NCBI RefSeq assembly: GCF_030463535.1
Contig: NC_132881.1
Location: forward strand, 8,332,026-8,396,025
Origin: Salminus brasiliensis
Taxonomy: Eukaryota; Chordata; Actinopteri; Characiformes; Bryconidae
DNA: 64,000 bases
Direction of reading: 5' to 3'
Of this stretch, positions 2,891-59,664 are shown piece after piece (within the stretch, counting starts at the first letter, position 1; the number at the start of each line of letters is the position of its first letter). The position numbers and the translations under genes are program-made. A model generated the notes under the pieces. The model worked only from the letters and a program-made list of their open reading frames with translations, was not told where the DNA came from and did not search any database.

Positions 2891-19337
<16,447 letters not shown>

Positions 19338-24046: not shown

Positions 24047-24435
24047 ATAGCCAATCATGATCACTACCAAAGTTAAGAGGCCTTGGCAAGACATTTTGAG
24101 ACTTTAAGCACCACTAAATGAACTAAATAAGTGAGTGTATGTATTTTTTGACCCTGTGTTGATTTCTGTGTTGAAAACCCACAAAAAACTAGACCTTGTG
24201 TAGGGGTGTGCATTAATGTTGCGTTGAGTGTTAAGCACGTCACAGCCATTGAATTCCCTTACAGATTTTTGTCACTACTCTATTTCTACGCAGACTGTGT
24301 AAGTCATGCCTCTAATGAACACAGATACTGGATGAAAATGAAACCTTTCCAGTTATTATTTTCATATATGGCTTCTTTTCTGGGTCAATTCTGAACTAGA
24401 ACACAGATCCTGGCCCTTTATGTGTTTGCGGGCCA

Positions 24436-25918: not shown

Positions 25919-26060
25919 GCTGCCACTGTTGGGGTCTTGAGCAAGGCCCTTTACCCTCTCTGCTCGCCGGGTGCTGGCGTTGGCTGCCCACCGCTCTGGG
26001 GGTGTGTGTGTGTGTGTGTGTGTGTGTGTTCACTACCACAGATGGGTTCTTTTCACCTTT
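25860..26060 (+). mobile_element. tRNA-derived SINE body with (GT)n
   Basis: It continues from the last array unit: tRNA head with box B, then gcaagctgccactgttgggg, cttgagcaaggcccttta, and a (GT)n tract at about 25999-26029. The same SINE occurs in reverse at 30690-30945 and 56050-56222. Confidence 0.7.
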
Positions 26061-28805: not shown

Positions 28806-29759
28806 TACTCTGCTATTTATATTAATATTCTATATATGTTTATATTTATATTAAATGTACTTAAGTATCATCATTACAATTCCTCAGTCACAGTCTTGTG
28901 TAAACGCTTGTTCTTCAGAAGTTCTTCAACATTGTCTTCCAAACATGCACGCTGGTTGCTTGGTCAGTGGTCAGAGGTTTCTATGGCTGACACAGGTGTT
29001 CATTTGCACATTCACGGCTTGAATAATCTCCATAGAAAAGCATTGCCGGTAGAATGGGAGCAGCTGGACATGAGCCTAAGTCATCATGCACAAACCCAAG
29101 CGTTGGCTAGAAGGCCGTGAAGCTCCCTGGCATGAGCCAAACTGTGTTCTTGTATCCTATTGGTCTGTCATGTGCGCAGTAGACCAATCAGTGTTCAGTG
29201 TGTGCGGGATTTACACTCGACCGATCTCATTCATTGTTCATTAGTTCGGTTCAGTTGTGCAGTAAGTCCGTGGCAGAACTGTGATGAAACACTGAGACTG
29301 TAACTCACACACTACCCCAGCATATAGGCTCTAAACCATGGCAGTGTTGCAACAGTCACGTTTTTGTTGCCCATGGTGGTTAAATGACTGTAAAAGACTT
29401 TTTAAAGCTTTACAGGTGCCTTTCTTTCATTAGCTTGGCTATCAGCTAACTGTATTTGAACTAATCTGTGTTTTTCCGCTGCTGTTCTTTGTAAAGACGC
29501 CATACCATGTAGACTTGCTTAAAGCTGTGAGAAGAAAATTTGCAGATCACATTAATATATTTATTTTAATGGGTCGTATTTTAATGCCACATTTTCTGAC
29601 AAGACAAGACAACCATTGTCAAATATGCCACGCCCAGCAAAACACACCGCCCCCAGCTTAGTTCACACATTACATACAGCGTATTAAATAAGATGATCTC
29701 CACTCCAATTCCAAAAGTATTAGACGAAGCACCATCCATCATTCCAGAGAACACAGTTC

Positions 29760-30460
29760 CACAGCTACTGTTCCACAGTTACATTTAAGGCCTTTAGCAG
29801 ACGCTCTTATCTAGTTTACTCAAAAAATAAATACCCTTAGCTAGTTTGTACAGAAGACTAGAATCCGAAGATACCTCTTAACCCTACATACTACTAAACA
29901 CAAAAGTCAACATGGAGACCATAATACTCGACACTACACTTCGCCCAAGTTCTCTCAGAGGAGGAGGGTCTTCAGTCTGCGTTTGAAGACAGCGAGTGAC
30001 TCTGCTGTTAGGACACCCAGGGCAAGTTCATTCCATCACTTTGGTGCCAGGACAGAAAAAAGTCTGGACGCTTGTCTTCCGTGGATCTTACATTTACATT
30101 TACAGCATTTAGCAGACGCTCTTATCCAGAGCGACTTACAAGGTTACTCACATTACAGAGGTGGGTCAGTGTAGTGTTAGGAGTCTTGCCCAAGGACTCT
30201 TATTGGTGTAGCGCAGCATAGTCACCCAGACCAGGAATCGAACCCCAGCCTCCCACATGGTGCGGTAGCTCACTGGCAGGTAGTGCTGTTATCTGTTGCG
30301 CCACACCAACCACAGATCTTAAGGGATGGCGATCAGGCCGAGCCGTACTCTTGGTAATGAACAGCTTTTGACCATTGCCATCAAGTATGGAGGGCCTGGT
30401 CCATTCTTGACATTGTAGGCCAGCGTCAGGGGTTTGAATCTGATGTGGGCAGTATATTGT
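29760..30460 (-). mobile_element. L2-type LINE 3' portion, interrupted by a SINE
   Basis: In reverse it carries the protein-end signature seen at 39300-39440 (lysine/arginine-rich ...FKRRLKTLLL...) and the 3' tail 'tagcagacgctcttatct' near 29793. The LINE text stops at 30090 and resumes at 30315 with the 7-bp duplication gatctta on both sides. Heavily mutated. Confidence 0.65.
30091..30314 (-). mobile_element. tRNA-derived SINE inserted in the LINE
   Basis: It begins catttacatttacagcattt with the L2-type tail (read in reverse) and contains a reversed box B (aatcgaacccc near 30236). It is flanked by gatctta at 30084-30090 and 30315-30321. A second copy is at 55845-56050. The shared tail suggests mobilisation by an L2-type LINE. 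Confidence 0.75.
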
Positions 30461-30689: not shown

Positions 30690-30945
30690 AGGTGCATGTA
30701 TTTGTCACTGTACAGCGAAATGTGTCCTCCACATTTAACCCATCTGTGGTAGTGAACACACACACTAGTGAACTAGGGGCAGTGAGTACACACACCCCCA
30801 GAGCGGTGGGCAGCCAACTCCAGCACCCGGGGAGCAGAGAGGGTAAAGGGCCTTGCTCAAGGGCCCAACAGTGGCAGCTTGCTGAGCCCGGGAATCGAAC
30901 CCACAACCCTGTTATCAATAGCCCGGCGCTCTAACCGCTAAGTAA
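30690..30945 (-). mobile_element. tRNA-derived SINE
   Basis: Reverse copy of the SINE at 25860-26060: gggaatcgaacccacaacc (reversed box B, near 30890), gcaacaagctg-type body and a degenerate CA tract near 30755-30800. Apparent open frames on both strands are part of this repeat. Confidence 0.75.
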
Positions 30946-31323
30946 GTGGGATTTTTACCAACTTAGTATGGAGGCTGTTGCTGCAGGAAAGAAGGGAACA
31001 ACCCCTCTATGAAAACTTCTGGATATGTAGGTTTCAGACATGAGGTTCTGCTTTAGTCTAGATCTTAGAGTGCCAGCAGAAAGGCAACAATAGGACAACT
31101 CTATTGAAGTCTTGCTTCAATAAGACGCTCTGTGTTCTGTGAGGTCATGGGAAATCCTGTGACAGTTGTTCAGCTCTGTTACACTGTCGTGTCAGAGGTG
31201 ATTCACATATGTTGCTGAACCTGCAGGTCAAGTTCTTTTGTCATGTGTCTGACTCTGTGGAACATTTCAATCACAGAGGTGGAGTGAGAAGAGCATGTAC
31301 AAGACAAAGGCAGGAAAGCAGAG

Positions 31324-34300
31324 ATGTTGTACCTGTTGGGGGTAAGTGGAAAAGGTCTTTTTGTTATGTATAGTTAACGTATATACAGAAATACAAGTGA
31401 CTGTAGTAGTCAGAAGTAGAGACATTGATCCTAAAATGTTATATTAAGGAGGAACGTGAGCGGTGAGAAGAACCTTCACGGGTTAAAAACAAAACAGGTT
31501 GTCAGAAACTTGCGTTTTGGCTTCCTTAGGGAGATGCCAGACACCACTTTCAAGCCTTAAAGAAGCTTTTAATAGAACCATTTTTTGCAAACGAGATATG
31601 GGAGAGCGTTAATAATTCCAAAATAAATTTTTATGGGATTTTCATTGAAACTGAAATCCAAGCTAATAACCAATAAGGATCATTTACGATATATGAAAAG
31701 CAGCATTTATTTATTTTTTGCTCCTGGGCTCCCCCTACAGTTGTGGAGCATAATTCACTTTTACACCTGAGAGGTAAATACAAATTGTGCTTTGTGCTCT
31801 GACTCCTGGATAGTTGTACATGTACAAATGTTGAAGGGGATGTAAAAGAAGCATGTGGACTGGATGGAGTAGTAGTATTATAGGATTTTACACAGTTCTC
31901 ATGAGAGGTCTTGTCCAGCTTCATTAAAGCTCCAGCCTGGGGTTACAATGATGATTCTGAAGCTGCTGTTTTATTTTCTAGAACTAAAAATGCTACTAAT
32001 GTTGCTTAAAAACTAGAATAATTAGAAATTAGAATAATTTATTTTTTAAACTACTTCCACTAACTATGTTATCTTCTTTTTTGGAACCCCAAAACTCAAT
32101 ATTTTGTTATTCAAAAGAGGAAATAGAGAAACACCCCAAAGTACAAAATTCCTCATCACTTATTTCCTCTTCTCTTCTTTTATCTTGACTCATTTGTTAA
32201 TCTGTTAAATCAGTTCTAAAATAAATTTGTTCCTCTAAATCTGATCTGTGATCTGTGTATTTAAATTGTACAATAAACCTTTTAAGCATATCATCACCGT
32301 CATCTCCAAAACAAAAAAAATCATCACATTATCAAATGTAAAGAACAACCGTCAGATTAATATTTTTGTAAAAACTAACAAACAGAGGTGATATGATTGT
32401 GGGATGGTTGTGGAGAGACTGTTTTTTTCTTTGAAATGGAAATGTGAGGACTAAAGCCGGAGCAAAAAGTCCCCTGAACGAGGTGTAAACGATCCCTTGG
32501 GCATTCAACCATTACCATTTCTAGTTATGGGTCGCAGTGGGTCTGGAGCCTACCCAGAATAATTGGGTGTAATGCAGGAATACCATTTATTTGGAAACAA
32601 CAGCTGCCAGATTATGTGTTTTTCCTTTTTTCCCACCTTGCAGATCATATTTGGCCTTATTTGCATCATTATGTGTATGACCAATGGCCTTAGGCAGGTA
32701 AGCAGAACATTTTCATCTATTAATTTCTTGTAATTTGTACTTTCGTTCATTGTGATGATTAAACAGCCTATCGTGGGGCAGCATTGCAGTGCATTAAATA
32801 ATGTAGACATGGGCCAGCAGCTTCAGGTTCTGTTCACATAAAAAAGAAACATCCAGTGAGGTCAACGGAGAATGGCCAGATTGACTCAGATAACCACTCT
32901 GTACAGATGAGGTGAGCAGAAAAATATCTCGGAATGGGCCACATGGCCAGGGCTGCAACAGGGGTGGCATTGTGGCCCTGCAGGTCGTGCATGTGTTGTA
33001 CATGTGTAGGTGCCTTGTGGGGTTGTGGGTTCCCGGTCAATCCCCAGTCCGGTTACTGTCTGTGAGGACTTGGGGTGTGTATTCTCCCCATGTCCATGTG
33101 GGTTTCCTCAAAAAAATACACACGGTGAACTGGCTATGCTAAAGTGTGCCTGGTTGTGAATGATTATGTGTGGTACTCTGCAGTGGATGCGAGTCCACTG
33201 TTTTCTTTACACACTTTGGACCGGTTAATACCAATTAATCACTGCTTGAATGCTACAGCCTATTTGAGTTTTGTTGCTGCCGGGATGAGATCCTCAGACC
33301 CATTGTGAGACCATATGATGGTGCAGTGGGCCCTGGGTTCCTTCTGATGCATGTGGCTAAAGTGTGTCAGCAGTTCCTGCATGAAGATGGCATTGATGCT
33401 ATGGACTGGCCTGTTTGTTCCCTAGACCTGAATCTAATCCATCCACTGTCCAGGAGTTGACTAATGCTTTAATACAGGGAGGAGATCCCTCAAAAGAACA
33501 TCCGTCGCCTCATTCTGATCAGAAGTATGCCCAGGCGTTGCAGGGAGCCCACACACACACTACTCAGCCGCATTTTAACTTGTCTTGAGGAATTTCCACT
33601 GAAGTTGGAAGTGCTGTGACTCTCAAGTGACACAACAGACTGAGAAATTCAAGTTTCAGCAATCACAACGACAATCACATTTTTTGCATGCCTTTTTTCA
33701 TTGACCTACATCGACAGCCACAAAGGTGCCACCTGTCACGATCACTGCCATTTTATTACGTAAACCACACCGGCACTTTATTTAGATTAACTAGTGCACA
33801 ATCAGTATAGCATTCTCAGAAAATATACTTACATCCGGACACTCCTGTTACATGGCAGCAGTCAGGGGTACGGCCAATGCCCCATATGCAGAACAGCAGA
33901 GGAAGGTAACCTCACAGTACTGGGAGTGGCTTGTTGTTGAATTTGACTTGTAGAGATGTTTGTATTTACACTTGTATATAATATTTGCCTAAATGCACCT
34001 CATATCACCTCTTGAAGTGATGTGAATTTATTTTAAAGGCATCTTGAGTGCCTTTACCTCTGCATTTTTATATGAGACAATCTCTATTTTGAGATTTACA
34101 CCAAAGACCAGGGGTCATATTTAGAAGATTTGGGTATAGTGTTAAGCTAAATGTGTTCAGTGTGGAATCTTCAATTCTACATACCTGTACATAATGTAAA
34201 CACACACCTTTAAAAGAAAAAAATAAACGATGGGAATTCAGAGGGCAGAGTTACATAAATAATTCCATTATCCAAATGTTTGCTAGCAATGCTACAGGAA

Positions 34301-37300
34301 TGCTACACAGGAATCTGGGGGACTGTAAGGTCAGGTTTATCAGGTTTATATCATGTAATATTCTGGTTGTTTTTGATCAATCACTGCACTTAAAGAGTGC
34401 TAAAATGGACCAACTATTATTAAAACACATTTAATAAGGATTACAACTGCATCACTATGACACATCAAGTGTTTTAGAATTGTACTACACATAAACATTG
34501 AATATATTGACATTAAAGTCCCAATATACTACTACAAAAAATGAGAATATTGTAAAAAAAAAAAAGTGTATATGTAGTCATACTTTCAAAAAGTTAAACT
34601 GTTATATATTTTATATCCAATACATTTAGGGACATATTTAAAGATTCTTTTGTTTTTATGTAGATACTGTTTCATTTATTAAATGGTTAGTTAAACAATT
34701 AGTTTGGATTTCTGATTTTCATGCCAATGAAAGCCATGAATCTAAAACATGTAACTTTTTAAGTTTAACTTAAGTTGAGATTATGATAGCAAATAAACTT
34801 TTCTACAATACTAAATGTTGTTTTTAGATGCACTAGTATAAACATAAACATAAATGCACTAAAATGTCAGTACTTCCATATTGTTAATATGTCAGAAGAA
34901 TAGGATGGGAACTGTAAATATGACTTTTATAAAGGAAAGTTTGGAAAATGAGTAAGCATAAATGCTTACACACATCAGGTCACAGTGTATTGTTAATTTG
35001 CATGTATTGTAATATTTGCTGCTATCTGATATTTTCTCAACATTTGCACAGTACATTTTGTACACCTCAGGGTTTCAGACAGCTTATATAAAAGAGAAAC
35101 AGAATGGATTTCCATTGATGTGTGATATTAAAGCATAACAGCTCATCTTTCCAGTCCTAGCTTGCCTAATCCTAAGCACAACGTTTCCACACCCTGTAAT
35201 TTAAAGTGAAAGAATCAGACTATAATGAGTGAAATGGTATTTAGATATTGGGATTCTAGACCAGTAAGAGTTTTGTAACTCAGGCAGAAATAAATGGGTG
35301 CTTCAGTATGTTTTTTTAAACAATGCTATAGAAGAACCACGTTTGGTTCCAAAAGCAACTATGTTTGTAATGTGATGTGTAAGTGTAAAAAAACGGTAAA
35401 TTGGTAAAGGTCCTTACCATTGAATTGGAACATTTCTACAATTCTCTTCAACAGAGAACACAAAGAGGTGCTAAAGGTAGCCGATGCAACTTGGACAAAA
35501 AGAAGGTAAAGGGATTTTCTAATCATTACCTAATCTGCTTTCTTCTTGTTTGTCTGTAATGATTAGTATGATGCAGAAATCACATTATAGCTTGCTTTGC
35601 TTGCAAAGTTATTCCATACACTCCCTCTCCCTTTTTCTTAAGGAACCAAACCTCTATATTCAATACTTAATAATTAAACTGAATATTCTTTTGTGGAATG
35701 CAATTAGAAGAAGCACTTTTGGTTTCCTAAAAATATTTCAGTGGATGCTTCTTTAGAGAGCCATTTTTGTATGAGATGTGTGAGCATGAAGAACCTTTCT
35801 GAAATTAAAAAAAACTTCATAATGTAAAGGTTAATTAAAGTTCCTGAGCACATCTAATGCCTCCTTTATGACTTGCAGTTGAACATTTACATTCCTATAG
35901 TCATTTTACTAGAAGTTAACCATAGTACTCTTAGCACCATTGTAACTGCTCATCAAGTTGCTTTAGTTTGATGTAAATTAATGTGAAATAGTCTTATTTA
36001 TGTTACATTTTCATCTTTTATGATGATTGTGTTGGCGGTTTGATCCTAGATTGCCCCAGAGTTTGAGAATACCTGTAATAACATACTCTGTTTTTTGCCC
36101 AAGCTTTATTGCCAAGATTTATATCACTACTAAATAGTCATTAAAGCCATGAGCCTAAGCTCCACTATCCATCATTAACAACTGACTTGAAATAGCCTTA
36201 ATAGCTAACTACTACTGAAGTATGTAAATGCTTGAAGATGTAGCCTTAGTAACTACTGAATGTACTCAATATGCAAAGAAGTATACCTACTTAAATATGA
36301 TCTAACTACTTAATATGCTACACTGCCTATGTTAGATACAAACACTTACTAGAGGCTGAAATGAAACAATACGTTTGTACTTATTACATTTAATTAAAGC
36401 CTAGCTTTAATTGTGTGTACTAAAAAATTGTACTAATTTAAAAATGTTCTATTTTAGATACCTAGTTAAACATACTACTACACATGTATTTAAATCTACA
36501 TGTTTAATATAATCTATATGTTCTAATATGACCCTAAAGTGAAATTTATAACACATGAAAAAGTGCTTTAACTTTATGACTGTTATATATTGATATATAT
36601 ATATTATACTAGACGTACAAATATACTCCTGTCATACCAAAATGGTGCATATCTAGGGATACGCTGTGGTGCATAATAAATGTGTTTGAATATTCTGCAC
36701 TACACTTTTTAGTATGTTACAAATACAAATACTTACATAATTTCATGCACGTGTTTACAATTAAGTGCATTTTCACTAGAGGGATGTAAATGTCATTAAG
36801 CCTAACCTTAAGAACACATTTCAATGGATGTTTCTTTAGATAAACATTTATTTGTATCAGAAATGCGTGTGAAGATCCTCCACATAATATAAATGTTATA
36901 GAAAAAGATATATATTACGTTATTTAACCCATAAATGAACAAATTACCATTTTAGATTTCCATACTTACATTACCTTGAACTTAGGACATGGTCGTCCAG
37001 CAATCCCTTGCCATACTGTGTGTTTTTTTTGGGGGGGTTGGGGGGGGGTCCTATAGCAAGTATATAGCACATATTTAATCTTGTATTAAATGTTAAGAAT
37101 TCCTTTGAAGAATCTCCATTTCCAGTCATTACCAGTGAAATCACTAATAAAACAGAGGGGCTGAAGTTAATAGACTTTCTTCTCTCACAGAAGGACTTTA
37201 GTGAACAGGAACTTCACTTCATTACCAGAATCCTGTCCATTGGGTTGGTGGATGCTGACCCCGACACTCTACACCACCTCAAAGAGTACAGAGATCTCCA

Positions 37301-37316
37301 TGGAGGTTCAACCTGA
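31324..37316 (+). CDS. Candidate four-exon gene for an 82-residue protein with hydrophobic N-terminus (no family recognised)
   Basis: Four exons join with no frame break, all at phase 0: 31324-31341, 32644-32697, 35455-35505, 37191-37316. Donors are gtaagt, gtaagc and gtaaag; acceptors have good pyrimidine tracts (cccaccttgcag, ctcttcaacag, cttctctcacag). The product starts MLYLLGIIFGLICIIMCMTN, a signal peptide or single membrane anchor (about residues 2-20). A short basic stretch follows (RTQRGAKGSRC), then four lysines across the exon 3/4 junction (residues 39-42). The rest is a charged, probably helical tail (DFSEQELHFITRILSIGLVD ... EYRDLHGGST). An in-frame TGA lies about 40 nt upstream of the ATG. 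A secreted prohormone cut at the lysine cluster or a small membrane protein are both possible. AATAAA motifs follow at 38283 and 38481. I do not recognise a family; the gene model is an inference. Confidence 0.6.
32820..33690 (+). mobile_element. Patchwork of Tc1-like and SINE-like remnants
   Basis: Pieces of a Tc1 family (gaggtcaacggagaatggcc near 32856; ttaataccaattaatcact near 33223) are separated by a SINE-like piece (33000-33195). From 33330 to 33640 comes another transposase-type remnant (cagttcctgcatgaagatgg, then ctagacctgaatctaatcc, then aacatccgtcgcctcatt). All are decayed. They lie in intron 2 of the candidate small gene. Confidence 0.5.
33700..35440. other. AT-rich intronic stretch
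   Basis: Intron of the candidate small gene. Apart from short tracts and a 'gaagaaccacgtttggttcc' type motif near 35330 related to the fold-back element at 48.1 kb, I see no gene or named repeat. Confidence 0.4.
35690..36900. repeat. Weak copies of a 'gaagaacc/ggttctt' dispersed repeat in AT-rich DNA
   Basis: The pieces 'cagtggatgcttctttaga' (35740) and 'caatggatgtttctttaga' (36820) are related, each followed by a 'gtgtgaagatcc/gcatgaagaacc' motif. The intervening DNA is AT-rich and unremarkable. Confidence 0.35.
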
Positions 37317-38282
37317 GAGTGACCACATTCACTGGTGTTTCCAGTGTCAGGCAGCGTCCTTAGGAACATGTACTCATTTGTACTATCTGTGTCTGGGAGG
37401 AGGAACTGTTCTTCTAGTTAGTTGTAACACTTCTTGTTAGTTGTATGGCAGCTGCTATAGAAATGAAACGGCATTGGATAAGGAATGGGAGCGACTGGTG
37501 ATTTAGTATTTAATAAGTCAACCCAAAATTGTGATGGGAGCATGTCCCTGATCACATTATCATGTCATCATCATTTACTTCAAACTTTATTCTTGTTTTC
37601 CCTTAATTTTCCTTTAAAATATAACAACCTGTATACATCACCGTGCACCAACAGGCGATTTACAGGGAAAATAATATTATCAATCAACATTCTCATGTTT
37701 TACGTTCTCCGCAACCTATCATTTAGTGAAATACTCATTCTAGACCAGGGTTTTCAGTATTTTTCAACATATCTCTAAGTACTGAAAGCTACAAATTATT
37801 GTTACAATTTACAATATGCCTCTTTATTATTACATGGACTTCAGCCCTAGTCTGTAATTTCCTAAGAGAGGAAAGAGGGGGAAAAAAAAGACATGGCAGA
37901 TCCAGACAGAACAAGAGGACAATACCCCAGGACCATGAAAATTGAATCCCACTCAAGCCATATAATTCAGTAGCATATTACATCCTCAGGCTTATAATTC
38001 AGTAAGCACAGGGAAAACAGCACATCGACTGGGCTCATCCAAAGCCACGGGAGAGAGCTGATGCCTAAAGGTTGGAGAAGAGGGCTTAGTAGCACATGGT
38101 CACCAGATCAATCCCCTGGACCAGCAGGAAATAGGAGCCGGGTTTGTTGAGGAACAATTTTGAGTGTATGCACTTACTGCTCCTATTTGTGAATGTGTGA
38201 GTGTGTGTGTGTGTGCAAGGCTAGAATCTGTTGAATTGCTGTGCAAATGCAGAGAGGTGTAAACCAAACAAGTCTGAACTCA

Positions 38283-38486
38283 AATAAACAACTAACCGAG
38301 CTCTGGGTTCATGTCATGATTATATGACTGATACTGTTACAGCTACTGTTACTTCTGCCTGGTTTTGAATAGGAAGTAAAAACCTTATGCTGTTATGAAT
38401 ATTGTGTTGGCATACACAGTAAGTGCTGGAGCACTATCTTGTGTTAAGTCGGTGACTGTGTTGATACTGCTTCTCAATACAATAAA
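38283..38486 (+). terminator. Candidate polyadenylation signals for the small gene
   Basis: AATAAA at 38283-38288 and 38481-38486 are the first canonical signals after the stop codon at 37316. The second is followed by GTG and a T-run (gtgttttttttag), a fair downstream element. Use would imply a 3' UTR of about 1-1.2 kb. Confidence 0.3.
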
Positions 38487-41470: not shown

Positions 41471-43373
41471 TTAGGTCTTGTGCTTTGCCCTGGTCTCATG
41501 ATCCTTACCCCAGATTCTGAAGTTCAGAGTTTGTCCCAGTAAGTAGAGCATGATCACTACAAATATGTTGGATATGAAGAAGGCCATCAGGCCAACTGTA
41601 CTGAACCGACCAAGTAACGGATACACCCAAATGCCAACGCTCACATACACCCATATAACCCTGTGGGGAAAATACACAAAAAAACTTTGTATCAGCCCCT
41701 GAATGTACAGTCCTTTCAGTAGTTAGTTTAGTAAGAGGGTTGTAGTGTGATCGTGATAATAATTCCACTAAAGAAGAAACTACGGATGTAATACATTATT
41801 GGAAACTGTTATAAACCACATCCGCTATATGGACAAAAGAATTGGGACACCTGATCATTCATTGTTTCTTCTGAAAGGATGTCAAAAAAGTAACTGTCTC
41901 TACTGTCCAGGGAAGACTTTTTATAGGATTTTGGAGCAATGCTGTGAGGGACTAACTGCATTCATTGACCGAGGTTAGGATGTTGAATGATCACCACCCC
42001 ACCTCATCCTCAACTAATCACAAAAGCATTGGATGGAGCATCACCATCACTCCAGAGAACACAGTTGAGCTCCACAGCTCAATACCAGAGGGCTCTAAAC
42101 CCCTCTAGCCCACGCCTGGCATTAGGCATGTTGATCTGCTCCAGAGAGTCCTGTTCTATTGGCTGTGCTTCTCTACAGGGACTAGAAAAGCTGTGTGTGT
42201 ACATTTGCACATTTGTGTCAGCAAGTAGCTTCATGGGGTGTCCCCAAACATTGGGACATACAGTGTACTATATGATAACACCTCACTGCACTCAACAGAA
42301 ACAACATGCACCTACCAGCCTGAGTAAAATAATCCAGCAACCCCCAGGGCAGCCAAACCATTTCTGGTCTTTGGATAGATGTGGGGTTCAAGTATGACCT
42401 CGCCAAGTAAAACTGGAAGAACCAGGGTATGCTGTCACACATAACAGGTGATAGTTAGCAGTTGCAACAGTAGTAAAAGCAGCAGTATTATACAGTTATA
42501 TCCCTTGTTTCTTTGTGCCTCATTAAATCAGGAAATGTTTTGAAAATCATCTGAATATTTTAACTGGGATGCAGTTCAACTCGGGTGGGATGTCATTCCC
42601 GGTTCTGATATCTGACTTCTGAGCTAAATGGAATGCAGCATGACCATCGAAACAATATCAAAGCAAAAACAAAAAAAAAAAGACTATTAAATGAAAACTA
42701 ATTAACAAGACTAACCATGGCGTGGTTTGCCCATGGGGGAAAGAAATTATCCAGAGAGGCTGGGTAAACCAGCTGTCGATCATAGGTAAATATTCCCCAA
42801 AACAGCAGAACAACCAACTAAAGAAAAAGAAAAAAATATTAAGGCATACATCACAAAAATATTTCTCAAAGCCTTTGTTTGCAGTCTTTGTTGTAGGGCA
42901 AAGTGGAAAAGATTAATACATGAAAAATGTTTATGTGCTTATATATATATTTATTCTGAGTAGCACTGTAGGGTCTTTTGTAAAGAGTGTGATCTCACCA
43001 GTCCTAATGGAAAAGCAAAGACGGAGAAGAGCAAGTCCTTAGTTAGGCAAAGTAGTGTTACTTTGGAGCCTTTTCCCAGTGGCTGTAGGTCTTTCATAGA
43101 AGCCAATCCAAAGAACACCATCTGTACAATCTAAAGACAGCATTTACAATATTATACAATACACAACACACAAAAGCAGCACACACAAGTTCAAGCAATT
43201 AAACAGAAGCTAAATCTTACCAGATTTATAAAAGTGAGATATTTCCATGGCCCACCATAGGGAAATATTCCATCAGGTGGATCTTCCTTCCCTTTAGCAT
43301 ACAGATACTGCACAACGAAGGCATACCAACCAAAAGCAGCAACATGATAAAGTTTCTTCACAATGCCAGTCAT
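41471..43373 (-). CDS. adtrp: ADTRP/AIG1 family membrane FAHFA hydrolase (complete, 5 exons, 230 aa)
   Basis: AIG1 and ADTRP are multi-pass membrane threonine hydrolases that cleave fatty-acid esters of hydroxy fatty acids; ADTRP was also described as affecting tissue factor pathway inhibitor. Exons in gene order: 43373-43221, 43130-42999, 42817-42716, 42431-42316, 41660-41471. All junctions are GT-AG; the frame gives 230 residues, the length of human ADTRP. The catalytic Thr is T47 in GGPWKYLTFINL and the catalytic His is H130 in WANHAMHT, matching the family's T/H pair. Other hallmarks are LLFWGIFTYDRQLVYP, EPHIYPKTRNGL and GIWVYPLLG. Hydrophobic segments are spread along the protein; the tail is basic (HETRAKHKT). 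The T47/H130 spacing and length favour ADTRP over AIG1. Intron 4 carries a MITE (41824-42268). Nothing is broken. Confidence 0.93.
41824..42268 (+). mobile_element. MITE, 'ggacaaaa-tattggg' family, copy 2
   Basis: It starts tatatggacaaaagaattgg and ends cattgggacatacagtgta, with internal motifs shared with copy 1. It lies in adtrp intron 4, antisense to the gene. Confidence 0.65.
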
Positions 43374-48281: not shown

Positions 48282-51200
48282 TTATTCATGTTGAATATGG
48301 AAAGTATGCCATATTTTACTCACCTGAAAACGGCTGTAAACTCTCTTCTCTTTCCGCATGCTCTCAATCTTTTTAAGCAGGTTTTCTCGCTCCTCTGGAG
48401 TGGTCTTGGAAGACCAAATCTTGGACTTACTTTGTAGCAGGCCAGAAATCTTTTGATCTTGTTTTGTGGTCCCATTAGCCTCCTCTTCTTTAGTATCACA
48501 ACTGTCAGCGAGACTCATCTTTGATGCTCTTCCTTGGTTCTTAGCGGATATCTGCTCCAGAAGAACTTTTGTGTCATCTCTAAGGTTGCTGCATGAAAGA
48601 ACATTTATAGTAGAGGACTGATGAGTAGGCTTTTGTGCAGCAGGAGGCTGCTGATTTGCTAAATCAGTGCATGGAGCCTCCTTCTGTGGTCTTGGAGACT
48701 GCTCCGCATTGTTCGATCCACCACTTGTTCCATCTGTTGTGGTCTCTTGTATTTTATTTACGCTGTCATTGTCCAGATCTGAGGGAGCTTGAACAGTCAC
48801 ATGGCTCGTCGAGTCAACTGATGCTTCTTGCTGCAGTGTTTGCTCTTTTGTAGGCTCCCCATTTTGATCCTTGTCCTTACTTTCCTCTTTAGGGTCAGGT
48901 GGACAACTGATGTGCTGAACGGTTTGAATCTCTGTTTCTTGCAGGTTTACAGGTTGGCAGACTTCCGCTGAACTATGGCTAGGATTATCAGTCACTGAAG
49001 AGAGACTCATCAATGGGCTAGGGTTTTTGTCACTAGTAAGTGGACACGGAGACTCTGTGGAGGCCTCACCTGGCTCAGAACCTTTCGAATGTTCTATCAA
49101 TGAGCTAGTGTTTGTCAGGCTGACTTTTTGAGATGCCCCGTCATCTGTCTTAGTAGTGTTTGTGAGTGAGCTGGTTTCTGGTAGGCTTTTACATGACTCA
49201 CTTTCTGCTAGAGTGGACTGATCAGATGAAGTAATTTGACTACATGAACTAGTTTCCACTGGACTGTCTTCTGTAGATGCCGTTGTGTCTGTTTGAGTAG
49301 TGCTGGCAACAGAAATAGCTGAGGCATTCACACCCAAGTCCTTTTCTGATGGCATTTTGCTGTTAGGTGAGTTCATCTCTGAGGAGGGTGTGTTGACAAC
49401 GGAAGGAGACAAGTCACATGCAGTATGTTCAGAGCTTTCGTTGGACGGTAAAGTGCTTGTGGCTGGGCCTGTTTCTGTTGGCATTAGGCTTACATCTGAA
49501 CTAGTTTCTGGTGGAAAAACTGTAGTTGATGCAGTGTTCACAGATTGCTGTTTAGTTGAGAGGTCCTCAGGGGATGCAGTAGTTGGTGATGCAGTGTTTG
49601 CCAAGTCAGAGGCTTGATGTTGGGTACACTCTGTCTTTACTTCACTTAGAGGCTGTGAAGGACCAGTCTCTTTGGCAGTGGTATGCTGAGCAGTGTCTAC
49701 CCCTTCAGCATGGTTTGCTGCGCTGGAAGGCTGTGAAGGACCAGTGTCTGCTTCAGTGGTATGCTGAGCAGTGTCTGTCCCTTCAGCATGGCTCGCTGTG
49801 CTGGGAGGCTGTGAAGGTACAGTCTCTTTTGCAGTGGTATGCGGAGCAGTGTCCTTCCTATCAGCATGGCTTGCTGCATTGGGAGGCTGTGAAAGACCAG
49901 TCTCTGCTCCAGTGGTATGCTGAGCAGTGTCCGTCCCTTCAGCAAGGCTTGCTGCACTGGGAGGCTGTGAAGGACCAGTCTTTGCTACAGTGGTATGCTG
50001 AGCAGTGTCTGTCCCTTCAGCAAGGCTTGCTGCACTGGGAGGCTGTGAAGGACCAGTCTTTGCTACAGTGGTATGCTGAGCAGTGTCCGTCCCTTCAGCA
50101 AGGCTTGCTGCACTGGGAGGCTGTGAAGGACCAGTCTTTGCTACAGTGGTATGCTGAGCAGTGTCCGTCCCTTCAGCAAGGCTTGCTGCACTGGGAGGCT
50201 GTGAAGGTACAGTCTCTGCTGCAGGGGTATGCACAGTTGTTTCTGTCTGCTTAGCATTTCCTTTCTCTGCTGGAGCAGAATGTTGGAAATTCCCTGTTTC
50301 TTCTTCTACTGAAGTGGGGTGTTGAGAAGGGCCAGTCTCTTTTGCAGAGGTATGCTGCTGAGCAGTGTCAATGTTAGAATGGCCTGTTGCAATGAGATGT
50401 TGGGAGAGACCACTTGTGAGGGAGACACAGTCTGTTGGACTCTTTTTTGGTGATGGTGAACTGGAATGTCCTGAATCAATAACTTTGGGCAATTTAGTCT
50501 GTGAAGAGACATTTGGAATGGGACTCAACTGGCTTGAAGGTTTAGTTGCTTTATGGAACTGTAGGCCTGGATTTGCACCAGAAGCACTGTTGTCAGTTGT
50601 TTTAAGGGATGAGTCATGCTCTTCAGTAAGCTGTTGCTTCAGCTTGATTTTCTCAGCATCTGTAGCACTTGTAGAAATTGCTCTAAGAGAACTGTCACAT
50701 TTAAGAGGACCGTGTTCCTCTGTCATCTTAGAATCATGGGATTTGTGCTTCAGGTTTTTATCAGGTAAGATTTGTGAGCTTAGTGCCTTAGTATTCGACT
50801 CCTGAGAAGCACCCAATGGACATTTTTGCGAAGATGCAGGTAGCAAAGCTGTTGCAGCCTGTGGAATTTTGGGAGTCTCTTTTTCTTCATTTCTGTCAGT
50901 AGGGAGAGATGCCTTTGACTTATTAGGCTCTTTGGAGACTTTGTCTTTGGTAGACAAGTTTGTTTGTGCAAGTTCAGCTTTTCGTTTGGCGGCTAACTCT
51001 TTAAAATACCTCAGTCTACATTCAGGATCATTCATATCTATGAACGATAATGACCCCTGCGAAATAGCAGGTGTGAGTTGATTTTTTGCACTTTCTGAAA
51101 CTTGAGGTTGAAGCCTCTGAGAAAGAGCTCTTTCTGGTTGAGAATCTTTTTGAGCCACTTCAGTAGCCTCACCTTTATCACCTGCTGATTCTTCCTTTGT

Positions 51201-54200
51201 TTTACCTGGAAGGTCTTCAGATCCAGTCTTCGGTGTGGAATCGAAAGATGATGGCTTTACAAGACTGCTCCACTGAAAAGGTTTTCTTGTGTCAGGTCTC
51301 TTTTTCTCCAAGATATTGGAAACAACAGTTGATTTTTTTAATATGTCATCCTCATTATTCTGACTCGATGAACTGCTTACATCATCTGAAGTGTGCTGTT
51401 CCAGATTAGAGCTAAAAATCAGTGAATGCCTCAATCTTGAGCTCCTCTGTAGAGCTAGATTGGGCCTCCTCCGGAAACTTTCTTCACGAGTCAAATTACT
51501 TTCTTTAGGTTCTTCCTGTTTGTCACCTTCAGTAGTACATGAGGACTCTGAAGTTGTTGTTGGTGTTTGTTTAGCATTTGCTAGATATGTCCTAAAACCT
51601 ACTTGACAGTCAAGTGACTTCTCAGGCAGAGATAAGTTGTCCAAGGTCTTAACGTTCAACTTGGAAGTGGGAGCCTTGGTAAACCCACTGCTGTCTTGCC
51701 TTGTCTCAGAAATTTCAGATTCACAGGGCCTGCCCTGGATGACATGGGGGGCATTATCAAAGGAACCAGTTCTTTGAAGATCTGCCATGTCCTCAAGTCC
51801 TGAGTGCTGAAGTGCAGTGAGATATGAGCTGATCCTCCAATCTCGTAATCCTTCTTTTTGGTCTTGTCGTTTGTGGTGTACATTAAAAAAATGTTTCTGT
51901 TCTGGTAGGTTTGGCTGTGTTGGCGAGGTCTGGCAAGTGTAGCTTTGGCCCATACTATGTCTCCTGGGAGGTGACTGAATGGGCACCAACAAATTCCCAG
52001 CAGGTACTTTTTCCACAGTAGGACAGGAATGTAGGTATCTTTGGACATGGTCATAACCACCTGGTGGTTCTGCATCACCCAGCTCATGAGGAAACTCCGG
52101 TCCTGGATACTGATCTAACTGATTGTAGCTGTAGTCCCTAGATGCCCCATACATTTCATAGCCTGGCTCTGGGCCTGTCCTCTGATTGAAATACTGCTCT
52201 CTAGAAAAGGGGGTACTAATCTCCAAACCCTCAATATTTTGCTCCCCTCTGTGTCCTGTATTAATCTGAGAATAATTTGGAACCCCTGTGTACCCATGTC
52301 TTCTAAAGCCACCCATGTCCTTGTTTGGGCCTTTCATTCTTCTCTGGTCCAAGAAGGAATGTTCCTCTCTGAACTGTTGGCTGGCATGCACTGGAAGAGG
52401 AATATGCTCATCTGTGGAGCTGTGCACTGATTCACCTCTCCTAAAAGATAATATATTGGGTTGAACTTTCACATGGTCTTCAAATGAATGCCCAGGCCAT
52501 TCTGCACGTATGTTTTCAACAGGTGGATGTTCTCTCATAAAGATATTGGTGTTTTCCATCTTATGTTTTCGAGGAATGTTGCCATAATCTTCTACATATC
52601 TCATGGCATTTTCAGCAACCAGCGGCTCTGACTGAGCAAACAGAATTCGAAACTCTTCATCAAAGGTAGCCACAAACTGTCCAATAAATACATGAGCCAT
52701 GCAGCGATTAATCTTCTCGAAAGACCACATAAAGCTTTAAAAAAAAGAAAGAAACACAAACAAAACCACAGATCAGATTAATAAAACTAAATATATAGTC
52801 TAGAACATATTCACAAATGACACAGAAATCATTTTACCTGTAGTTGCCACTCAGAACAATTTTACAGTCCACCAGTATAAAGCGATTCATCATCTGACCT
52901 TTGAAGGACTTCCCTGTGTGGCAAAAGTAGGTGCTGCCAGAGACAGTCCTAACTCGCAGAGACTGTACAGAAAAAGGAGACAGTTAGTTGAACCCTAGTG
53001 ATCAAGTGACCTTATGTTCCTTGTAACAGATATGTGGCTAAAATCAAAAACAGATTTAATGCAGAAGGTCAGGTAAGGCTCAGGTGTGAGAGGGCATAGG
53101 GCATGATCCATCTCCCAAATTTCTGTTATGTTATAACTCCTCCAAGGCTTAAAGCATATATGCCAACATTTACTTTAACACTCACAGGCTCTACTCTAAA
53201 CCCAAAAGTCAAGCATACAAACAGAAAAACCTAGACAAGAAACTGTGAGTAATCCTCTGGTGGGTCACAGTGTGTGGGAAAAATAGGTTGTGAGGCAGCT
53301 GGAATTCATATAGTTAAACCTTTTTTTCCCTTCTGAAATATTTTAGGGCCAAAGAGGAAGTCACTCTGTTGCTGCACTGTAGATACTTGTGGCAAACCCC
53401 ACCAGTTACACAGCATTGCTGTCTGCCTTAGCATGTTTGGGGGAAGGTAGTTATTACTTGAATTACTGTGGTCGCTTTTAGACAAAAGGCTGAAATGATG
53501 CTCATGTTTTCCAAGATCACACTGCCAGTGCAATTTTGTATTTTTAGCTTTTTTTTATTTTTAATTTTAGCTAAATTTATTTTAAAAGCCTAAATGTAAG
53601 TCCCACATAAAATAGAGCAAACGTTGCGTTTCACCTGCTATGCTATACACTGAACTATTTAAATGTAACATTCCTGCCTAGTATTTATTATGTAATGTCA
53701 TTATTTCATAGGTAATTACAGTTCTATGTCTAATTTACCCAAAATTAAGAAACTAATGAGACGAGAGCATGGCCAGTTGTGTTCTCTCAGACTCTGCATG
53801 CTGATGGCAACATAATATGCTCAGAATATGCAGCAGAAGACAGAAACTAATATAGCCAATATAATGAAAAGGTCATGTGACCGGCAGAAGAGTATGTGAA
53901 CATTATATGGCAAGCATCATCATCTAGAATTGGACTCTTAGGAGAAGATAAACATGAACCTAATGCCAGGTGTGAGCTACAATGGTGTAAAGACCCAAGC
54001 ATTCAGCTGTAAAGCAGTGAGACTATGTTTTCTGAAATGATGGTGCTCTATCCAATCCAAATGGGATCATCCTATGACGTTTTCAGCAATGCTCCAAAAT
54101 CTTGTAGATCGCCTTCCCTGGACAGTGAGACAGGTACTTCAACAAAACCAAGATAAAGCAGGGTTTGTATTATACAATATATAGCGTGCCCCTCTCTGCA

Positions 54201-57200
54201 TCCATGATGTCGCAAAACCCATATCACAGGACTATTAAACAACACCAGGCCTTATTCTTTTATACAAGTATTATATGAATATATGATATGAAGTATTCCT
54301 TCCACCTCAGTTCAAATTGTATTACTCTTGTTCCCTCTTTTGATTACGGAGGGACACTGAAGACACTTTGCGGATAAAAGTACTGGCCCACCTGCTCAGT
54401 CGTTGTTTCTTCCAAAATCAAGGGTATAATACAAATCCTGCTTTATCTTGGTTCTGTTGAAGTACCTGTCTCTACTGTCCTACTTTTGGAGCATTGCTGT
54501 GAACATTTGATTGCATTCAGACTAAGAGCGTTAGTGAGGTCAGGATATAGGATGATCCCAACATCCCAAAGTATTGGATAGAGCACCATCATTTTAGTAA
54601 ACACAGGCTCACTGCTTCACAGCTGAATGCTGGGGTCTTTATATCATTCTAGATCACGCCTGGCATTAGGCATGGGGGTCAAGAGGTTCATGGTTATCTT
54701 ATGGTTATACAAGCTGTGTATGTAGCTTTGCATCTCTGTGTCAGCAATGCGTGCAACTTAAAGTACCATTGCTGACACAGAGGCAAATTGACAATTGACA
54801 TTTTTTTGTAAGTAAATCCACAAATCATACAATTATTACTACTACATCTAATTGGAATTATTATTATTATCATCATCTACAAGCTAATATTAAGTAATAC
54901 TACCACCAAGTAGAAGAGACTACAGTTAGAAATTAGTAAGATTGGTACTGGCCAATCTGATGTCAAATCAATATCACTATTAAATGAACATTTTACCTTG
55001 ATTATAATTAATAAACAATTATATAAGCTGCTCGAGTTGCTCGGAGCTTGGTGTTTGAGTTTTCCCCTCAAATTGCTTTCATGTAGAGCTGGGCAATATG
55101 ATGATATTTCATTGTACTGTGGTAAATTTTGCTATTGTAATACACAATATGCTTTTCTAAGCATATCGAGGATATTGTTAGGGCTTAATAAACACTGATC
55201 AACTTCAAAGTTTCTCTACAAACTGTGTAATTAGACCAGTTTTATTAGATGGAGAGCAGCAGATGTGAATGTGACTATCTGAATAGTAGTTATTGTAAGA
55301 ATAAATGATAAATATTGTGTATCGTCTATATACGGTGTAATGTCTTTAAATATTGTGGTATTGTATTTTTGCCATATCGCCCAGCACTTTCAAGTCATTT
55401 GTTGCCTTTAAATGGGATGGGGCAGAGTCACATGGACACACAGGTGGGTAAAGTACCAACAGAAGAGAAAAATAATGGATAAACAAGGGCATAATTACAT
55501 AAATTAGGCATTTTGATTACATTTCGATTATTCGCCCTGCCCTTCGCAAGACCCTAGGTAATATGATATTACAAATATTCTTGTCTTAAGTAAATCAAGT
55601 TATGACTATTTAAACAGGTCATTAAAAGGGAATAATTTAAATTCATAGTGTAATTACTTGAACTGGACTGAGCAAGTAAACATATGTCCTCTGTGGATCA
55701 GTCTAATAATTTGATTCCAATATGCATACTGATATGTAATGCAAACTCTGGCATTGGCATGACCACAGGAAAGATAATGAATCAGTTGTGGTCTAGCAAC
55801 TATAATGTTTCTAACAAACATCTAAATCAATAAAATTGTAAAAATTTATGACATTTAGCTGACGCTCTTATCCAGAACGACTTACAAGGTAACTCGTATT
55901 ACAGAGGTGGGCCAATAGTGTTAGGAGTCTTGCCCAAGGACTCTTATTGGTGTAGTGCAGCATAGTCACCCAGACCGGGAATCAAACCCACGTCTCACAC
56001 ATGGCTCACTGGCAGGTAGTGGTGTTATCTGTTGTGCCACACCAACCACAAAACTAGGGGCAGTGAGCACACGCACACTCCAACTCCAGCGCCCGTGGAG
56101 CAGAGAGGGTGAAGGGCCTTGCTCAAGGGCCAAACAATGGCAGCTTGCCGCGCCCGGGTATCAAACCCACAATCCTGTCATCAACAGCCCGAAGCTCTTA
56201 ACCGCTGAGCCACCACTGCCATCATGTGCAGTCTCTTTAAAAGCAGATCCAACAGAGTTACAGACATCAAGTAACACAGTGTTAACAAAGTTCCTTCTCC
56301 TGAATGAAACTAACAGCTTTCAAAAATGTAGCTGCCTAATGCCATTGTTAGTCCTTTTTGTGATGAGCAGAGACTACTGATCTCAAACGGCTCCCTCCTA
56401 TATGGTATATAGTATTACTTAAAAGTTTACAGGGCTACATGAACCTCTTCAGCAGAGTCACACTGACTGCTCAGGCCTTGGAGACTGGAGAGTGTTTATT
56501 TTTTTTCAGGGGGCTGAGATGTTCTGCTGAACACTGTCATTAGGAAGCTTTTGCTGTGTTGGCAGAATTGAAGCTCGGCGGCAAAAGTATGAACTATGTG
56601 ACAACAAGCTATCAGAGTGACATGATATGGGTATGGCCCCTGCAGGTCTGTTCTACACAGCACTGAGTTGAAATCTTTTTTTCTCATCCACTCAGGTCAT
56701 CTCATTCACCTATTCAGACTTTAAGACTTTAAAAAGTTCTGACGTACAGAGACTTATTGTTCCTGCAGAAGATTCAGTGACATGAGATAACAACGTTTTG
56801 CACATCTGCTGGAGTGGAGCCTTTTACTGTCATCTGAGCTGAACAATAAGATGTTACATAGACACGTAGCCATGTTGACAGATTCCATCTAATCGGTAGG
56901 TTTTGTGCTTTAAAATCCTAGAATTATGAATATATTTGATTCTAATACAAGTCAAATATTGAATCTACATATAATTTGCATGAAGGTATAGTTACTTTAA
57001 CCAAGTCTGTGTTGGTACACGCTTTTGTGAAGGTGTTGACCTGCCGTAATAATTTTACTCCAACACCTTACCTATCGTCACGGTCAAACAGAAACCTTAT
57101 TAAAGTCACATGTGAGTCAGATTTGTAACACATCAAAATGACTAAGGTAATGTACTGGCCTTGATGACGTTATCCTCACATAGCAGAGTAAAAAACTGCT

Positions 57201-59664
57201 AAATAACACTGCTCAAAGGTCAATTTCACACAGTCAGACACAGCCCAGACTCATATGATAAACACAATTCTCACCGCTGTGTTACTGCACCAAGATTTAG
57301 GGACAGCTTTTGTTGTTTTTTTATATTTATGATATACCCAAAAACAAGTATACTTCGAGCATAAGTGCAAAGGTATTTCGTTTGCACTCACTGGTCGTCT
57401 TGGGTGACACGTATGAACTTGTACTTTTCAACAAGGGGTATCAGTGAGTCAATCAATCAGTGACTCAGTAAAAAGACACTGAATCTTACAGGCTGGCCTT
57501 CTGAACTGCTCAACAAAACAAATACCTGTCAAAAAGTTCCTGTCCAGAATAAAGACAAGGTAGAATTCTAGACGTGGTCCTTTTTTTTTTTCTTTTTTTT
57601 TTCCCCCAAACGACTCAGAAAGGCTGTGCAAATGGAGCTTCCAGTAAACAGCTCACCAAATAAATAAGACCAGAGATCTTGCTGCTGCACACACCTAAAA
57701 ATAAGGTCCCAAAATTGGTTCTTTGGAGCATTTTTAAAGAAGGACAACCTATGGTTCACTAAAGAGCATTTCAATTCAAGGTCAGTTGGTGAAACATCTC
57801 TCCCCCTCTTAGATATTCCACGATCAAATGTGAGTCTTATTATTCAAAAAATAGAAGTGTTTAGCAACCACATGAACTTTGCCACAAAAGTATGCTGAGG
57901 TACATAGTGCATACAGGCCCCGGCACTCTTATAAGAGCTGTAAGAGCCGCGTGGTATTAATGCCCATGTATTCAGTAGGGGATATCCTGTGGTGTCCCAG
58001 TACTTTTGTCCATACAGTGCATGTAGCACACAGCCACACACCACTGACTACAGAAGGTCAAGGATCAATATTTTTAGGGCTTGAATCAGTCTGCTTTAGT
58101 CGGAGAACGATTGCATTGACATGAAAGTTGTTTAAGAATCCATAATTTGCTGACTGATGATCTTTTAAAGCAAATTACTGGATAATTAATACCTATATAC
58201 AACAGAAAAACTTTTTAATTACTAGGGCTGCTCTTAGTTAGCTACAGTTTCCGCAGCACACTCAGCACAGTGGACGCATTTAATACTTATCAGGTACATC
58301 TACCATGTAGATGCACTTTGTAGGTCCACAAAACCCCATATTGTGACATGCAACATTTTAGTCATGGTCTACCCTGTATCAAAGGAAAAGGACCATCACT
58401 AGATCTGTGCTGAGCAGATATTATTTGGATGATGAACCATCTTCAGTACAGCAGTGACATGGACGTTGTAGAAGCGTGTTAGCGTGCCATGAATCAGGCA
58501 CAGCAGCATTTCTGGGTATTTTTAAACACTGCGTAATGTGTAAGGCCACTCCTTGGGTGCCCAGCCTTACAAGAGTGCCAATACAAGCTGCAACACCAAC
58601 CTTCCACACCTGGCTATGATATTTAGCTGCCATTTAAGATCATTATACAACTAATTAGTTCAATTATGTGTATTAGGTTCATGTTGGATGTTCTGGAGCT
58701 GGGCTGGGTATCTGCATTTCTGGTTCTTGTTTCACTGGCAGAACATTTTATTTTCTTGGTGTGGTACCTCCTGAGAACAAGTCTGTTATTGCCTCTTAAA
58801 TGATACCGCATATTATTTAACAGCACTTTCCTGAAGCTCCTGAAGTTTTTTTTTTTTTTACTTCTAGTTATTATTTAAACATCTTAGCCTCTGCACTTTA
58901 CACCACAAATCAATATGATCCATTAGCTTTACTCTAGAAATACTTACTTTAATCTCATCCAGATTAACCCTGCAGTTGTTCACCATGGCAACAAAGTGGT
59001 GAGCGTTCACCTCATCCAGCAGAACATAAACAGGTACGTTGCGCATTGCTGCATTCAGGATATCAGCAAAGATGTCCACATCCGTAAACATGTCCATCGC
59101 CACGGCAACCACCTTTGATGAACACACAGGGAGAAAGGCACCTCACTCTCACTGATTTTCGCAACACAACGACACGTCATAATTTCCGCATGCATCAGCA
59201 AAATGAGTACGAAAACCTACTTGTTGTGCATTCTTGATCATTCTGCGGACCTGCTCCTTGATGCTCGGCATCTCCGGGTCGGAGGGGTTGACTAAGGTAG
59301 TGATTTCCGTGGGTCCGGCAAATCTGTGTTCTTGTGGCCACCCCAGGTCAAGACCTGGGGCATCAAGGTCCGAATGAATTGGCCAGTAAGTGTCTGAGGA
59401 ACCATCTCCATCTCCAATCACGTATCTTCTATCTGCTTGCGGCCTCTGGCACGGCACCTGCACCATACCCTTGATGTACTCAATCTCCGGCCGGGATAAG
59501 AAATCCACCACGTTGGCTTCCTGTAGGAATCCATAGTAACCCTCCAAGTCAGCCTCGATTAGGGCATCGATTGCCAGGCGGTATTCCTCGCGGTAGTGTG
59601 GGGGCAGGAAGTTGGGGTCCAGAGGGTTGTCCCCAGCTGAGGAACACTGAGATCGGCGCGCCAT
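48282..59664 (-). CDS. fam83h: FAM83H (DUF1669 protein) with expanded C-terminal region
   Basis: FAM83 proteins share an N-terminal DUF1669 (pseudo-phospholipase D) that recruits casein kinase 1; FAM83H organises keratin filaments, and human truncations cause amelogenesis imperfecta. Coding exons: 59664-59221 (residues 1-148, start MARRSQCSSAGDNPLDP, the FAM83H start), 59112-58948 (149-203, VVAVAMDMFTDVDIF), 52962-52838 (204-245, GKSFKGQMMNRFILVDC), and 52734 to 48324 or 48282 (from FMWSFEKINR). All junctions keep frame. The CK1-binding F-x-x-x-F is F269/F273 in TFDEEFRILFAQ. The active-site HxK of true phospholipase D is absent. Total is 1715 residues to the last motif (MRKEKRVYSRFQ) or 1728 to the in-frame stop, against about 1180 in human. 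The extra length is Ser/Thr/Gln/His-rich and includes a 26-residue tandem repeat. A good donor follows YSRFQ, so a further exon may exist. Intron 3 is about 6 kb. Confidence 0.9.
49651..50218 (-). repeat. fam83h: Seven-copy 78-bp coding minisatellite in fam83h
   Basis: Units start at 49651, 49729, 49807, 49885, 49963, 50041 and 50119, each exactly 78 bp, with a partial eighth at 50197. They encode about residues 1091-1273 of FAM83H as a 26-residue repeat of the type TGPSQPPSAASLAEGTDTAQ followed by HTTVAK. The copies from 49963 to 50196 are nearly identical; outer ones are more diverged. The length is a multiple of three, so copy changes keep the frame. Confidence 0.95.
53961..54668. repeat. 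Large inverted repeat made of two MITE copies
   Basis: The arms are 53961-54173 (reverse) and about 54427-54668 (forward), roughly 85-90% alike by eye, with a spacer of about 250 bp. Both arms carry gctttatcttggtt, ttgaagtacctgtct, ttggagcattgctg, ttggatagagcaccatcat and cacgcctggcatt or a near match. The sequence belongs to the family at 40326-40745. It lies in fam83h intron 3. Confidence 0.8.
55086..55392. mobile_element. MITE with 'agctgggcaatatgatgata' ends
   Basis: The left end agctgggcaatatgatgat and the right end (reverse) agtgctgggcgatatggc are inverted repeats. It is about 300 bp without coding capacity, in fam83h intron 3. A partial copy is at 38544-38640. Confidence 0.65.
55845..56050 (-). 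mobile_element. tRNA-derived SINE (second copy of the 30.1-kb family)
   Basis: It shares gacgctcttatccagaacg, cttgcccaaggactcttat and caccaaccacaa with 30091-30314, and a reversed box-B-like gaatcaaaccc near 55980. Confidence 0.7.
56050..56222 (-). mobile_element. tRNA-derived SINE adjoining the previous one
   Basis: Reverse copy of the SINE at 25860-26060 (gcagagagggtgaagggcc, ccttgctcaagggcc, tatcaaacccacaatcc). Its head reads gctcttaaccgctgagcc in reverse. Confidence 0.7.
57850..58035. mobile_element. MITE fragment, 'ggacaaaagtattggg' family
   Basis: It ends tcccagtacttttgtccat then acagtgca, the terminal repeat of the element at 43851-44339. The left half is degraded. Confidence 0.5.
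58240..58640. mobile_element. Dispersed non-coding repeat (MITE-like)
   Basis: The pieces agatattatttggatgatga, acagcagtgacatggacgt and 'tttttaaacactgcgtaa' resemble a common otophysan fish repeat. The minus-strand open frame of 70 codons inside it is not a gene. Confidence 0.45.

Follow-up and report, generated by a model that had tools for sequence, protein, structure and literature searches.

Do four short open stretches between positions 31,324 and 37,316 of a window of Salminus brasiliensis DNA form one small gene and, if they do, what kind of protein would it encode? The window, that is, the whole stretch analysed, comprises 64,000 nucleotides (contig NC_132881.1 of assembly GCF_030463535.1, positions 8,332,026 to 8,396,025 of the forward strand). 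The original prediction had placed here a gene of four phase-0 exons for an 82-residue protein. We consider it probable that the candidate is a real protein-coding gene; this is a judgement and not a computed figure. Our best explanation, read from the sequence and held at about even confidence, is a real, probably single-copy small gene on the plus strand, flanked by a HERC4-like and an AIG1/ADTRP-like gene, that most likely encodes a single-pass membrane microprotein.

Spliced together, the four plus-strand exons gave an 82-codon frame that ends in TGA and has no internal stop; the predicted exons, three junctions and frame were correct. The exons measure 18, 54, 51 and 126 nucleotides, each divisible by three, and all introns are in phase 0. 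Proposed exon 1 (31324..31341) contributes MLYLLG, with a start context of 2.0 bits and the donor GGG/GTAAGT (6.1 bits, 14th of 3,557 GT sites). Exon 2 (32644..32697) adds IIFGLICIIMCMTNGLRQ, the remainder of a hydrophobic core, between an acceptor of 7.9 bits (7th of 4,086 AG sites) and a donor of 7.7 bits (3rd). Exon 3 (35455..35505) encodes the basic segment RTQRGAKGSRCNLDKKK between an acceptor of 3.7 bits (105th) and a donor of 3.2 bits (80th). Exon 4 (37191..37316; acceptor 6.5 bits, 22nd) supplies KDFSEQELHFITRILSIGLVDADPDTLHHLKEYRDLHGGST, an acidic part with a predicted helical hairpin, and the TGA. The previously described lysine cluster indeed straddles the third junction (KKK/K). 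About 1 kb past the stop, two AATAAA motifs at 38283 and 38481 on the plus strand (span 38283..38486) may mark the transcript end.

Splice sites were scored with vertebrate matrices and ranked among all GT and AG sites from about base 1,000 of the window onward. Of the six sites, four placed between 3rd and 22nd, and two at 80th and 105th. On average the six sites reached 5.9 bits, versus 3.6 bits for the eight sites (28.6 bits in total) of the AIG1/ADTRP-like neighbour gene. The 36 sites of a HERC4-like chain averaged about 4.2 bits, in a chain selected by a gene finder and with some false exons. The codon score of the candidate was 16.9 bits over 82 codons, or 0.21 per codon, compared with 0.126 for the AIG-like neighbour. 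Most of this signal lies in exon 4, whose 0.31 bits per codon exceeds the values of the other three exons. The sole open plus-strand window from 33.5 to 39.2 kb to score as high as exon 4 was its own, 37173-37368.

The exon 4 region matched the 1.07-Gb, 103-contig genome once in a DNA search, namely at its own position. At the protein level, exon 4 found itself and no paralogue in the genome up to E 10, in a tool that scores the best candidates only. The 82-residue query returned seven matches: its own exons 2-4 and four further matches at E 3.97 to 7.11, which we took as chance.

Several findings weigh against a coding gene. Exon 2 lacks a codon signal (-0.02 bits per codon), and the codon score of exon 4 was equalled by 513 of 5,124 open 41-codon windows between 19.4 and 48.2 kb, about one in ten, many of them in repeats. 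Exon 4 also has a second plus-strand frame that stays open over its 41 codons, and on the antisense strand a frame open over 33. A generic gene finder, which also fused neighbouring genes, never called the candidate as a separate gene. The two codon results also favour a rival reading in which no protein is made, and the exons are a chance string of splice-like sites or belong to a non-coding transcript in intergenic DNA. The uncertain start of the gene, discussed below, and the lack of a known relative in the Pfam, PDB, viral and bacterial or archaeal searches point the same way. On the other side stand splice sites that on average beat those of a verified neighbour gene, and an exon 4 window that is the unique high scorer of its strand in its surroundings and matches the genome once. 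We regard the absence of a protein as rather unlikely, and chain tests bear on it in both directions.

These tests took the highest-scoring chain of four exons that runs from an ATG to a stop codon and compared it with that in resampled DNA; with proposed exon 1 the candidate scores about 54. Thresholds (donor at least 2.5 bits, acceptor at least 3 bits) were set just under the weakest sites of the candidate, after it had been seen. With them, the search of the real local region returned exons 2-4 exactly, joined to an alternative first exon, at a score of 56.0. A score of at least 54 was reached in none of 300 local resamplings, and then in 16, 2 and 4 per 2,000 with blocks of 125, 250 and 1,000 bases, respectively. 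An N-terminal hydrophobic stretch as strong as that of the candidate occurred in 1 of 600 and in 0-4 of 2,000 null chains, never jointly with a score of at least 54; the stretch had been noticed before it was tested, and hydropathy is not part of the chain score. These low counts, 2-16 and 0-4 per 2,000, argue against a chance string. When the real window was cut into 7.2-kb tiles and searched with thresholds, the candidate topped, among the 23 chains listed, those clear of neighbour genes and transposases, about 4 bits ahead.

Other settings were less favourable, and their high null counts speak for the absence of a protein. Without thresholds, a score of at least 54 was reached in 6 of 300 and 19 of 600 local resamplings, and in 232, 96 and 30 per 2,000 with blocks of 125, 250 and 1,000 bases. 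The best real local chain was then a different one (57.8), which swaps exon 2 for a transposon-like stretch. Resampling of the 22-kb gap that holds the candidate gave such scores on the plus strand in 148 of 400 cases with thresholds and 396 of 400 without; the minus strand gave 160 and 398 of 400. In our view, the GC-rich block of repeats at 24-28 kb accounts for this high gap-wide null. The unthresholded search of the real gap found a plus-strand chain of 80.6 through repeats at 23.5-28.1 kb and a minus-strand chain of 55.8 at 20.6-26.1 kb. With thresholds, the top plus-strand chain again joined the alternative first exon to exons 2-4, and the minus strand returned none. The tests thus reduce a chance origin of the chain only in part.

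The recurrence of another first exon touches the least certain part of the model, the first exon and with it the N-terminus, of which we are less sure than the original prediction implied. We searched 27.0-32.57 kb for single first exons with a donor scoring 2 bits or more and a phase-0 junction to exon 2, and found five. The best-scoring one, MGNPVTVVQLCYTVVSE at 31147..31197 on the plus strand, reached 11.7, followed by proposed exon 1 with 9.8. In addition, an out-of-frame ATG (31295..31297, plus strand) lies 29 nucleotides upstream of the proposed start and opens a frame that stops inside exon 2. The closest TATA-type motif upstream of the proposed start is at 28831.

The gene may be real while its N-terminus was misread, with a start at 31147 (MGNPVTVVQLCYTVVSE...) or at the ATG inside exon 2 (MCMTNGLRQ...). 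The higher score of the alternative exon and its choice by the thresholded chain search together with exons 2-4 favour this, and the ATG at 31295 could hamper the proposed start. Against it, the alternative donor is weaker (3.4 versus 6.1 bits), and proposed exon 1 extends the hydrophobic core of exon 2 unbroken. All in all we think a misread start unlikely. If it applied, the hydrophobic segment would lie further inside the protein or be absent; the uncertainty of the N-terminus is shared by any reading of the product as a membrane or secreted protein.

What would the 82-residue product be? The hydrophobic N-terminus described earlier was recovered. Residues 2-18 form the one strongly hydrophobic segment (mean hydropathy 2.78 over 17 residues). 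Residues 22-42, directly after this core, carry a net charge of +8 and residues 43-82 one of -5. Apart from residue 65, the product contains no proline. An AlphaFold2 model of exon 4 alone, made without relatives, predicts helices over residues 5-16 and 24-37 of this exon (mean predicted local distance difference test score 75, predicted template modelling score 0.35); this two-helix hairpin is only suggestive.

As proposed alongside the original prediction, we looked for a signal peptide. With a cleavage matrix, the best position, MTNG/LRQ, where T occupies -3 and G -1, scored 1.6, under the usual threshold of 3.5. Among controls, the secreted proteins PTH and APELA scored 6.9 and 8.5 and the anchored STMP1 scored 1.4. 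Two functions had been offered, a small membrane protein and a secreted precursor cut at the lysine cluster. Because the cleavage score is low and a charge of +8 directly follows the core, the former fits better. By sequence, a membrane anchor that carries a basic segment and an acidic helical hairpin is likelier than a secreted peptide.

By the positive-inside rule of membrane topology, the charge pattern and the low cleavage score suggest an uncleaved anchor with a cytosolic C-terminus. If the gene is transcribed and translated, as we infer, the N-terminal core (about residues 2-18) would serve as an uncleaved signal anchor that inserts into a membrane, the strongly basic residues 22-42 would hold the remainder of the product on the cytosolic side, and the acidic C-terminal hairpin of exon 4 would be the part that binds a partner.

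A secreted precursor would instead lose the signal peptide MLYLLGIIFGLICIIMCMTNG, and a prohormone convertase cutting at KKKK would free a 40-residue acidic helical peptide. The residues at -3 and -1 of the best cleavage position favour this, basic cut sites are present (RTQR at residues 25-28, KGSR, and KKKK at 39-42), and the would-be peptide sits in the last exon, as in the parathyroid hormone gene. Yet its cleavage score of 1.6 falls short of the 6.9 and 8.5 of the secreted controls and was reached by 147 of 600 null chains, strong positive charge follows straight after the core, and the would-be peptide lacks an amidation signal. Neither did Pfam return a hormone family up to E 10, and when the part after the core was aligned with hormones, shuffles did as well in 196 of 300 cases for PTH, 33 for PTHrP, 83 for CRH and 170 for PTH2. 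Secretion of a cleaved peptide is in our estimate improbable. Still more doubtful, indeed very unlikely, is its boldest form, in which the product would belong to a new family: a peptide hormone or receptor ligand of fish not described before, made as a precursor whose leader is hydrophobic, whose basic pro-segment is cut at KKKK and whose last exon supplies a helical peptide of 40 residues.

The membrane microprotein, our preferred reading, raises the question of relatives. No family had been recognised in the original prediction, and Pfam likewise yielded nothing above its cut-off. Its single match up to E 10, PROL5-SMR (PF15621; residues 5-38, E 0.018), reached 15.8 bits where the curated cut-off is 25.3, and the candidate is not proline-rich. 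With the alternative start the match weakened to E 0.055, and it was lost once the hydrophobic part was removed. A sequence search of the PDB gave best E values of 0.68 for the product and 0.25 for exon 4, taken as chance. Pattern searches returned 10 stretches in viral contigs and 183 in bacterial and archaeal genomes, and no relative was confirmed in either set, as expected for a fish gene. In the accessible parts of the literature on the synteny of the locus (HERC4, ADTRP, FAM83H), on ribosome-profiled small secreted peptides, on zebrafish HILPDA and G0S2 and on microproteins, nothing could be linked to the candidate; the same holds for the accessible text of PMC12234341.

We aligned the product to 12 small proteins and scored each alignment against 300 shuffles. 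HILPDA (hypoxia-inducible lipid droplet-associated protein) reached a score of 41, equalled by 1 of 300 shuffles, followed by SMIM11 with 38 (8 of 300) and, each with 33, G0S2 (26 of 300), STMP1 (5 of 300) and PTHrP (37 of 300). The scores of the remaining seven were reached by at least 87 of 300 shuffles. HILPDA had been put into the set because LYLLG had been noticed beforehand. It too has a hydrophobic N-terminal core, and LYLLG and further aliphatic residues of the candidate can be aligned gap-free over 32 residues with the human sequence. In contrast, nothing in HILPDA is matched by the part after the core (253 of 300 shuffles reach its score), and LYLLG is not specific, because the AIG-like neighbour has it too. 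Since the likeness is confined to the core and the motif recurs in the neighbour, we claim no homology. HILPDA and G0S2 are lipase inhibitors with an intron-free coding region, whereas in the candidate, provided that exon 1 is correct, the intron between exons 1 and 2 interrupts the core; the alignment with G0S2 is itself weak. Pfam contains the HILPDA and G0S2 families as well as one for STMP1. None of them matched up to E 10, in a search whose HMMER filters can miss weak matches.

STMP1 (short transmembrane mitochondrial protein 1) aligned gap-free over 40 residues of the human sequence, from.LLG..FG to LD.KKK. It differs in its length of 47 residues, the lack of a C-terminal hairpin and a core hydropathy of 1.39 versus 2.78 in the candidate. 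With fewer than 100 residues, one hydrophobic segment and a basic flank, the candidate resembles small integral membrane proteins (SMIM-type microproteins), which are a descriptive class and not a family, with no established homology to it. For SMIM11, the part after the core scored 28 (21 of 300 shuffles); for SMIM13, shuffles did as well in 182 of 300 cases. Genes for secretory calcium-binding phosphoproteins have only phase-0 introns, as the candidate does, and encode their signal peptide within one exon that follows an untranslated exon; in the proposed model, by contrast, the hydrophobic core is divided over exons 1 and 2.

At 24431-25916, a 165-bp unit is repeated in tandem about nine times (96% matches), and sequence at the right end of this array (25848-26009) recurs inverted at 30788-30949. 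The single Rfam match between 19.0 and 48.5 kb was the 3' element of an UnaL2 long interspersed nuclear element (RF00436, 62.7 bits; 30099-30152, minus strand), about 1.2 kb upstream of proposed exon 1. A repeat origin of the exons was considered and rejected: none of them falls into a repeat family identified between 19.4 and 48.2 kb, and the genome has a single match to the exon 4 region. Extension to a longer gene was also dropped, as no convincing extra exons were found and the plus-strand chains at 22-28 kb pass through repeats.

Three recognised genes, all on the minus strand, lie around the candidate. A HERC4-like gene (2891..19337), identified by an exon chain with its translation and an RCC1 Pfam match on the first exon, runs away from it. 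Within this span, on the opposite strand, lies an open 340-residue Tc1/Sleeping Beauty-type transposase (14088-15110, plus strand; Pfam HTH_SB, HTH_Tnp_Tc3_2 and DDE_3), and the chain exons inside this 14.1-15.1 kb transposon were taken as false. Convergent with the candidate is a complete AIG1/ADTRP-like gene (41471..43373) of five exons and 230 residues (Pfam Far-17a_AIG1, E 7.4e-58). An antisense reading of the candidate, based on a minus-strand exon of the gene finder at 37226-37392, was dropped; this exon is not needed, because the AIG-like gene is already complete and ends in a stop of its own at 41471. Beyond lies a FAM83H-like gene (48324..59664; Pfam SACK1 on two exons, E 3.1e-36 and 4.8e-11). 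In its large exon, at 49649-50232, a 78-bp unit that encodes 26 residues of the SLAEGTDTAQHTTVAKTGPSQPPSAA type is repeated about 7.5 times (90% matches). The names HERC4 and FAM83H (the H subtype) were given by comparison with human sequences.

To the left of the window, an open frame with MSGASNTLAREFLTDVHQLCSAVAQQ (L008, about 3097-3423, minus strand) appears to be an exon from a different gene. On the 5' side of the HERC4-like gene (2891-43373 of the window), the next recognised genes are the candidate and the AIG1/ADTRP-like gene; no search aimed at MYPN or SIRT1 was made. According to the accessible text of PMC6002735, these two flank HERC4 in most vertebrates. In the main text of an AIG-family study (PMC8394805), term counts returned neither HERC4 nor FAM83H.

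Taken as a gene, the candidate is probably ordinary in kind and holds nothing surprising. Multi-exon genes for proteins of fewer than 100 residues are easily overlooked, because no single exon stands out. The general picture would not change with this one, but if it is expressed and conserved, it would give the gene sets of fish one further small protein, membrane-bound or secreted.

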